Shown here: positions 46,451-56,115 of the stretch, piece by piece | Layout of the letters: each line of letters starts with the position of its first letter | Position numbering within the stretch: position 1 is the first letter of the stretch | Notes under the pieces: model-generated | Databases searched by the model: none | What the model saw: the letters and a program-made list of their open reading frames with translations, nothing else | What the model was told of the DNA's origin: nothing | NCBI RefSeq assembly: GCF_000143845.1 | Contig: NC_014363.1 | Coordinates: forward strand, 1,597,186 to 1,661,185 | DNA length: 64,000 nt | Direction: 5' to 3' | DNA from: Olsenella uli DSM 7084 | GTDB taxonomy: Bacteria; Actinomycetota; Coriobacteriia; Coriobacteriales; Atopobiaceae | Translations under genes and position numbers: made by a program

Positions 46451-46707
46451 GCGTTTTACCCAGCTGACCTGGTATTTGACCCCACACTCGCACACCGGGG
46501 CTCTCGCTTCGGGACTGCACGGTCCCCCACTGATGGCCCTCTCGCCCGTGAGGCTGGACGCCTCGGCTTGGTTTCGGGCGGTGCGACTTACTTCTAGGAC
46601 GAGCCATGCTCGCCCGGGTGCGCACACCCGGGCTTACGTGGATCCTTTCGGCCTCGTCTGCCATGAACTAGGGCTTGCGCCCGCAACCACAGACCTGGGT
46701 AAAACGC
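46451..46707 (-). ncRNA. Structured non-coding RNA, candidate raiA-motif RNA
   Basis: The minus-strand transcript is closed by an exact 13-bp terminal helix: GCGTTTTACCCAG at the 5' end (46707-46695) and CTGGGTAAAACGC at the 3' end (46463-46451). Inside are many hairpins: GGGC-GCAA-GCCC (GNRA loop), CC-GAAA-GG, GCCCGGGTG-TGCG-CACCCGGGC, GAGGC-GTCCA-GCCTC and GGGAC-CGTGCA-GTCCC. An extended -10 promoter lies directly upstream. There is no open frame. raiA-motif RNAs are known near comFC and hpf genes in Firmicutes and Actinobacteria, matching this position. The family assignment is inference; the structured RNA itself is well supported. Confidence 0.65.
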
Positions 46708-51392: not shown

Positions 51393-51570
51393 GGGTGAAG
51401 TCTCCTAATGACGGATATGGCCCTGGGTCTTTGGGACTCTGGGTCCGGGCCGTACGGCGCCGTGGGGCACTGCGCTCCGCAACGCGCCGCACGTCGGGAC
51501 GCCGTATGCCGTCGTGCAGCACCGCGAGGCGCCGCATGGGGACGCAGCAGGGCGCCACGCAGAGACACAC

Positions 51571-51597
51571 GACGCACACGACGCACACGACGCACAC
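51571..51597. repeat. 9-bp microsatellite-like repeat
   Basis: GACGCACAC is repeated three times in tandem (51571, 51580, 51589) with partial copies on both sides, in the leader upstream of metG. Confidence 0.8.
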
Positions 51598-51747
51598 GAC
51601 GGCTGATTGTACCTCAGTCGCGGGGCCGGTCGCCCGCAGGAACGGCCGATTCCGAAGCCATCCGGACGAGGGGTATGCGGACGGGAGGGCATGTGGACGG
51701 GAGGGGGCGTCCAAGCGGGAGGGAGCGTTCCGACGGGAGAAGCGTCT

Positions 51748-52017
51748 GGACGGCAGAGAAACTATTGTGAGTGGAGTTCGGGGCATCGCTCACAATAGTT
51801 CGTCACACGTCCGATTTCGGGAGTTCCGAGGATGGTAGGCGAACTATTGTGAGTGGATGTCGCAAACCGACTCACAATTCCTCTCCTGCCGTCCCCCAGA
51901 GTGCGAATTATGGACGTGTGACGAGCTATTGTGAGTTTCTCCTTCACCATGACTCACAGAACTTCCCCTGCCATCCCGGCGGCCTCAAAAAATGGACGCG
52001 TGGTGAGGTTCTGTGAA
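51748..52017. repeat. Alternating inverted-repeat array 1 (seven 24-bp units, 17-bp spacers)
   Basis: Seven 24-bp units lie at 51748, 51789, 51830, 51871, 51912, 51953 and 51994, an exact 41-bp step. Orientation alternates strictly. In the forward reading a unit starts CTCACAATAGTT and ends CGTCACACGTCC (51789 is the consensus-like copy). Each pair of neighbours is separated by exactly 17 bp of unrelated sequence. Any adjacent pair can fold as a hairpin with a 17-nt loop. The 51393-52226 stretch has no gene; before the array are degenerate GGACGGGAG repeats. Confidence 0.9.
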
Positions 52018-55702: not shown

Positions 55703-55981
55703 GGATGCCTGACAAAGAATTGTGAGTCCCGGCCATCCGAAACTCACAATACTTCGTCACGCATCCAATTTCACGACCCCCGTGGACGGCTGGCGAACTA
55801 TTGTGAAAAGTTTTTCAACTTTAGCATCACCAGACTCACAATACTTCTCCACGCGTCCTTTGGGAGACGCTCTTTGGGATGGCTGAAGAGTTATTGTGAG
55901 TCTCCCGATCCCGTCGCTCACAATAGTTGCCCAGCCGTCCACACGGTCACGAAAAGCGGACGTGTGAGCAACTATTGTGAA
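55703..55981. repeat. Alternating inverted-repeat array 2 (seven 24-bp units)
   Basis: Seven units of the same family as array 1 lie at 55703, 55743, 55784, 55835, 55877, 55917 and 55958, in strictly alternating orientation. Spacers are 16, 17, 27, 18, 16 and 17 bp. The conserved half CTCACAATA and the terminal TCC are kept; the middle varies. The spacers are unrelated to those of array 1. Confidence 0.88.
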
Positions 55982-56043
55982 AACAGGCCGAGGGACAGCG
56001 CCTCGGAGGCAGGGGCCGCAGCGTCCCCGGACGAACCGCTTTC

Positions 56044-56115
56044 CCGCCAGGCAATCCATCCGCCAGGCTATTCGCCCGCCAGGCAATCCATCCGCCAGGC
56101 CATCTGCCCGCCGGA
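56044..56115. repeat. 16-bp tandem repeat
   Basis: CCGCCAGGC starts at 56044, 56060, 56076 and 56092, with a partial fifth copy near 56108, giving a 16-bp unit (CCGCCAGGCAATCCAT and variants). It lies just after array 2 and before queD. Confidence 0.8.

Follow-up and report, generated by a model that had tools for sequence, protein, structure and literature searches.

Strictly alternating arrays of a 24-bp repeat in Olsenella uli as candidate phased platforms for a DNA-binding protein

What kind of element is the short run of evenly spaced repeats that lies between two genes of the mouth bacterium Olsenella uli, and why would its copies change orientation at every step? In the window, the stretch of 64,000 nucleotides analysed here, the first-pass annotation had described seven copies of a 24-bp repeat, stepping by 41 bp in strictly alternating orientation, and the coordinates and orientations of the copies bear this description out (array 1, Table 1). 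The exact 17-bp spacing that it had also reported holds for all six spacers of array 1 but not as a rule, since only a few other arrays share it. A second array, missed in that annotation, is present at 55703-55981. The degenerate consensus GGAYGNSWGRNGARNTWNTGTGAR has eight exact matches in the window, every one inside these two arrays, whereas 100 shuffles gave no match. Elsewhere in the window, a raiA RNA was found at 46455-46703 on the minus strand (Rfam RF03072, 167.8 bits).

Table 1. Repeats, spacers and related features of the two window arrays, with the arrays of genome G069
Feature	Position	Strand	Remarks
Array 1	51748..52017		seven 24-bp repeats, F R F R F R F; all six gaps 17 bp
Array 1, setting	divergent intergenic region		metG (minus) / protein-tyrosine-phosphatase-like gene (plus); names read from translations
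Array 1, two additional 5′ half-sites GGACGGGAGG	51679..51704	+	at 51679 and 51695; F1 orientation; within short 16-bp tandem repeat
Array 1, repeat F1 GGACGGCAGAGAAACTATTGTGAG	51748..51771	+	35.7 bits
Array 1, repeat R1 GGACGTGTGACGAACTATTGTGAG	51789..51812	-	34.1 bits
Array 1, outer spacer 1	51813..51829		T-tract GATTTCGGGAGTTCCGA adjoining GGA end of R1; tract position-specific, in most arrays
Array 1, repeat F2	51830..51853	+	34.2 bits
Array 1, repeat R2	51871..51894	-	32.6 bits
Array 1, repeat F3	51912..51935	+	32.8 bits
Array 1, repeat R3	51953..51976	-	34.7 bits
Array 1, outer spacer 3	51977..51993		A-tract CGGCGGCCTCAAAAAAT adjoining GGA end of F4; mirrors outer spacer 1
Array 1, repeat F4	51994..52017	+	27.7 bits
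Array 2	55703..55981		seven repeats, F R F R F R F; gaps 16, 17, 27, 18, 16, 17
Array 2, repeat F1	55703..55726	+	29.3 bits
Array 2, repeat R1	55743..55766	-	33.3 bits
Array 2, repeat F2	55784..55807	+	36.4 bits
Array 2, inner spacer	55808..55834		27 bp (17+10, one helical turn); AT-rich motif AAGTTTTTCAACTTT, which recurs in other arrays' inner spacers
Array 2, repeat R2	55835..55858	-	34.0 bits
Array 2, repeat F3	55877..55900	+	35.7 bits
Array 2, repeat R3	55917..55940	-	34.8 bits
Array 2, repeat F4	55958..55981	+	32.6 bits
G069 arrays	L148:4285-4570; L151, L153-L179

The genome, a single contig of 2,051,896 bp, was searched first with a weight matrix and then with a 105-position sequence profile. 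It carries 26 arrays with 164 copies of the repeat. The core TATTGTGA occurs 61 times, against two occurrences of its reversed control, and the reversed-sequence controls of the weight-matrix search gave two weak matches only. Fifteen arrays have seven copies, five have six and two have eight; four short or decayed arrays have 4, 4, 3 and 2. A repeat is called F if the plus strand reads GGAYG...TGTGAR, and R in the opposite orientation. An intact array is built of three back-to-back R-F pairs; an F may be added at one end and an R at the opposite one, giving 6 to 8 copies with sharp ends. No degenerate site was found past the last copy of intact arrays, and the core and profile searches found no solitary sites elsewhere in the genome.

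Orientation alternates in all 138 neighbouring pairs. For the inner gaps, between TGTGAR ends, the lengths were 16 bp (30 cases), 17 bp (32), 27 bp (3), 6 bp (1) and 10 bp (1); for the outer gaps, between GGA ends, they were 17 bp (56), 18 bp (12) and 28 bp (3). Only 8 of the 138 gaps were thus atypical, and seven of these were offset by about one helical turn (+10/11 or -10/11): 27 is 17+10, 28 is 18+10, and 6 is 16 or 17 minus 10 or 11. Arrays with a common shift also share its position, so that about four independent shift events are indicated, three of them of a full turn. The step of 41 bp corresponds to 3.9 helical turns and would place successive sites on nearly one face of the DNA. Conserved sites, free spacers and spacing quantised in helical turns, the features expected of a phased protein-binding array, are all seen here, with one off-turn exception, the gap of 10 (minus 7, not a full turn) in a decayed array. 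The first-pass annotation took a step close to four helical turns as a hint of a protein assembling on the DNA, and the 41-bp lattice with its mostly helical-turn shifts supports this view. Its other suggestion, an unusual copying mechanism, found no direct support, although the shared gap signature and some tract positions point to common descent. Several arrays, lying in either direction along the genome, repeat the gap series 16,17,17,18,16,17, and together with partial spacer similarity this argues that at least a subset of the arrays descends from a common ancestor. Part of the spacing regularity is therefore inherited.

The repeat itself is highly constrained. Over 161 copies, G1, G2, A3, A13, T19, G20, T21, G22 and A23 were fixed at 98-100%. 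Position 4 was always Y, position 8 always W and position 10 always R, whereas position 14 was R in 99%, position 7 was S in 96% and position 17 was W in 98% of the copies. Position 24 was mostly R, and positions 6, 11 and 15 were nearly free. The base-specific blocks are spaced by about 10 bp, and between them, at positions 7-8 and at position 17, roughly a turn from each other, lies the two-fold-symmetric degeneracy (S/W). S/W degeneracy is expected where the minor groove faces a protein. From what is known of groove recognition, the pattern fits a protein that would lie along one face of B-DNA for slightly more than two turns.

Spacers, in contrast, have diverged almost to randomness. Their identity between arrays was 0.30-0.34, compared with 0.27-0.29 for shuffled sequences. 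Outer spacers 1 and 3, with identities of 0.43-0.44, carry mirror-image T- and A-tracts beside the GGA ends. The earlier description of the spacers as mutually unrelated is thus largely right, apart from these conserved tracts. That the spacers drifted while the sites stayed fixed implies purifying selection on the sites, as judged by comparing copies within one genome. No significant homogenisation of copies within arrays was detected.

Two further sequence patterns were observed in and around the arrays. An AT-rich motif (about AAGTTTTTCAACTWTT) occurs in inner spacer 2 or, reverse-complemented, in inner spacer 3, between repeats ending GAA (L046, L048, L050, L055, both arrays of L057, L060, L084 and window 55808-55834). 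Outside the terminal F repeats, the 5′ half-site GGAYGNSWGR was found seven times in array orientation and once in the opposite orientation; its density near arrays was about twice that farther off (window 51679-51704 and the L086, L087 and L057 flanks).

Constant repeat and spacer lengths recall a CRISPR or an array for site-specific recombination, and one CRISPR repeat is recorded in the published genome description (PMC3035265). However, a CRISPR consists of direct, near-identical repeats with unique spacers, whereas the repeats here alternate strictly and are degenerate, which agrees with the first-pass annotation in setting a CRISPR aside. The arrays, moreover, number 26 and are of fixed size, and their 16-18-bp spacers have conserved tracts in two slots. 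No cas genes were present among the 20 flanking proteins scanned, and a comparison of array 1 with phages and plasmids, as that annotation had proposed, gave no match in either. Recombination by inversion would leave disordered arrays, but none of the 138 pairs was disordered. We consider this explanation extremely unlikely.

Neighbouring copies in opposite orientation might also work as hairpins in RNA or single-stranded DNA, that is, as transcription terminators, mRNA stabilisers or cruciforms. Neighbouring pairs do fold well (z-scores of -2.2 to -6.9 for pairs and -7.9 for the whole array), and a T-tract follows F1-R1 in most arrays. Nevertheless, at the variable positions neighbours did not match each other better than they matched copies from other arrays: the inner match was 0.504 with 0.504 expected, and the outer match was 0.485 with 0.497 expected. 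Pairing that tolerates G-U was also at the random level (0.622 and 0.620), and no compensatory covariation of the arms was seen. Since neighbours pair no better than random, hairpin pairing is not under selection. All inner and outer pairings are equally possible, and the near mirror symmetry of the arrays gives no strand direction. Recognisable terminators were found at 4 of 24 array-adjoining genes and at 12 of 88 others, a similar frequency, so they are not rarer beside arrays. On these grounds RNA hairpins and terminators were rejected, and a hairpin element of any of these kinds seems improbable. The hairpin with ambiguous partners proposed in the first-pass annotation can therefore form, but the random level of complementarity between neighbours speaks against it as the functional form.

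By the codon-usage gene calls made in this analysis, all 26 arrays are intergenic: 7 are flanked by convergent genes, 16 by tandem and 3 by divergent ones. In the tandem class, 14 of 16 are closer to the 3′ end of the upstream gene (p=0.004). Arrays lay a median of 120 bp from 3′ ends, compared with 380 bp from 5′ starts. These positions bear on whether the arrays are operators of a transcriptional regulon. The consensus does resemble a protein site, and three arrays (window array 1, L043 and L059) are in divergent promoter regions; most arrays, however, lie behind 3′ ends and far from 5′ starts, and 6-8 sites per locus far exceed what an operator needs. The neighbouring genes are also unrelated, encoding EF-G, pyk, hisF, hcp, glycerate kinase, ABC transporters and others. 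Pfam analysis of 20 neighbouring proteins showed no functional theme. No cognate binder was found, and no protein consistently adjoined the arrays. Operator arrays are thus very unlikely. Genes for GntR-type regulators were seen near three arrays (L046, L047 and L088), probably by chance.

Two general properties of the chromosome were examined and rejected as explanations. The distances of arrays from dnaA did not differ from a uniform distribution (KS p=0.25), which leaves no origin- or terminus-related distribution along the replichores. Predicted intrinsic curvature was only marginally higher than in other intergenic DNA.

Short tandem duplications were observed less than 200 bp from arrays 16 times, with 3.3 expected, a density about fivefold that of intergenic sequence elsewhere in these loci; compared by region (11 of 26 versus 5 of 21), the difference was not significant. 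Examples are at window 51566-51601, 51659-51739 and 56043-56112, at L058:4591-4702 and at L044:5086-5160, among others. If real, these duplications would fit either difficulties of replication or repair next to a firmly bound block, or the neutral slippage that any tolerated intergenic site shows.

How widely are the arrays distributed? The sequence profile detected no array in 139 other genomes of the family, 298 close relatives and 395 genomes from across the phylum (overlapping sets). Weak matches in G180 (one, E=0.0095) and G010 were rejected because they were not arrays. Viral, phage and plasmid collections contained no array, the own genome being possibly masked in the large ones, and the sole match in a scan of genome contigs, in Pseudanabaena, was attributed to chance. 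The first-pass annotation had reasoned that single, irregularly spaced copies in related genomes would make the regularity an accident; the relatives searched carry no copies at all. At the convergent glycosidase-pyk junction, O. uli has 582 bp with an array, while the array-free G047 and G055 have about 154 bp and 107 bp. As to a target-site duplication or a precise empty site, these sister-genus junctions are shorter, but their intergenic sequences have diverged too far for an alignment. Array-free relatives and a shorter junction mean that the arrays either arose in the O. uli lineage or disappeared from every relative sampled.

A scan by geometry only, over about 1.6 Mb from 11 relatives, detected a single further alternating array, in genome G069 from a sister genus; such a scan would miss roughly one in three O. 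uli loci, and rarer or shifted arrays in relatives could escape it. The G069 core, TGTGTACACTNNTGCG, is unrelated to the O. uli motif. It has 198 exact copies in G069 and none in four sampled congeners. Like the O. uli arrays, the G069 element has tandem units in alternating inverted orientation and variants shortened by 10 bp (steps of 50 and 52-54, with 44-bp variants). Unlike them, it has longer palindromic units, conserved loops and evidently recent copies, several of which share the terminal sequences GGCTTCGTGAGTTCGTGTGGGT / CTCTTCRGGGGTTCGTGTGGGT. The conserved loops and shared termini give it the appearance of a younger mobile element, and it looks MITE-like. It may show, by analogy, one way in which alternating arrays start. 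G069 also has two Y1 transposase-like genes (L220 and L222), and the motif is not beside them.

BIME-like dispersed alternating repeats are usually explained as by-products of transposase activity. The O. uli arrays were compared with known families of this kind. BIME-2/REP arrays, known from Escherichia, Xanthomonas and Stenotrophomonas, are likewise lineage-specific extragenic clusters of a short unit with regularly alternating orientation, and BIMEs are bound by gyrase, IHF or Pol I (PMC2817692). The O. uli units are as regular and extragenic (no violation in 138 pairs; 26 of 26 arrays intergenic). They are not palindromic, however: the modal unit folds with 0 kcal/mol and a second unit with only -1.9. 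In place of a GTAG or CGTC tag beside a stem there is a CRTCC end with no adjacent stem, and the RAYT (Y1) transposase, PF01797, is absent from the genome, as it also is for the CGTC REP families. The nearly random spacers of fixed length, the 6-8 copies with sharp ends and the phased lattice with mostly helical-turn shifts are further differences. CGTC-tagged REPs are similar in being dispersed and having no known dedicated transposase, and the O. uli motif ends CGTCC on one strand; they have an 8-9-bp stem, a 4-5-bp loop and a CCA tail and are mostly dimers, whereas the O. uli motif has neither stem nor tail (PMC3733652). Because the unit is not palindromic and the RAYT gene is absent, we rejected assignment to REP/BIME.

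The strongest rival to the reading preferred below is that the arrays are decayed, non-autonomous elements of a MITE- or BIME-like kind that spread in this lineage long ago, with repeats that are past or present transposase sites and no host function today. Their position behind 3′ ends, away from promoters, would agree with this, as would the common descent indicated by the gap signature and tract positions shared in either orientation. The longer glycosidase-pyk junction likewise implies DNA added here or lost elsewhere, and the younger element of G069, bounded by terminal repeats, does contain an internal alternating array, although a different one. On the other side, a core conserved at 98-100% among spacers that are almost unalignable argues that the repeats are not decaying neutrally. 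The terminal inverted repeats and shared boundaries of a MITE were not seen either: the 300-bp flanks share only low-complexity or short chance matches. Solitary copies are absent, and a search for the RAYT/Y1 family found no such transposase in the genome. We regard this explanation as possible but doubtful.

The reading that we prefer, and hold to be slightly more likely than not, is that the arrays are ancient, spread originally and were kept as phased binding platforms for a putative architectural protein. They probably spread at first as an element. Each 24-bp repeat would be an asymmetric site for a single DNA-binding protein, specific in sequence and confined to one lineage, or for one subunit of a dimer, and would be covered along one face for slightly over two helical turns. 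This protein would contact the major groove at GGAYG, GA and TGTGA, about 10 bp apart, and read the minor groove or DNA shape between them. With back-to-back sites every 41 bp or so (3.9 turns), 6-8 protomers could align on nearly one face and form a closed, roughly two-fold symmetric nucleoprotein block of about 230-310 bp. We infer the binding, its cooperativity and the architectural role from the sequence pattern. Iteron- and centromere-type arrays such as sopC and parC are evenly spaced protein sites that assemble one nucleoprotein complex, but they are usually direct repeats at a single locus, whereas the O. uli sites alternate strictly and occupy 26 loci. Placed between genes, the 26 blocks would most likely serve chromosome folding or bridging, or the insulation of transcription units, rather than promoter regulation.

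A tentative extension of this platform reading, which we put forward with reserve, is an undescribed system of chromosome architecture in which one putative protein acts on 26 mirror-symmetric arrays as insulators, bridging points or barriers to replication forks or transcription. Phased arrays of alternating sites may also recur as an architecture that different species build from unrelated sequences. Fixed sites among drifting spacers, together with mostly helical-turn shifts, indicate selection on the geometry of the DNA itself. If the protein is found, it would define a new bacterial architectural or insulator system limited to one lineage, and the arrays would be an example of selfish repeats turning into parts of the chromosome.
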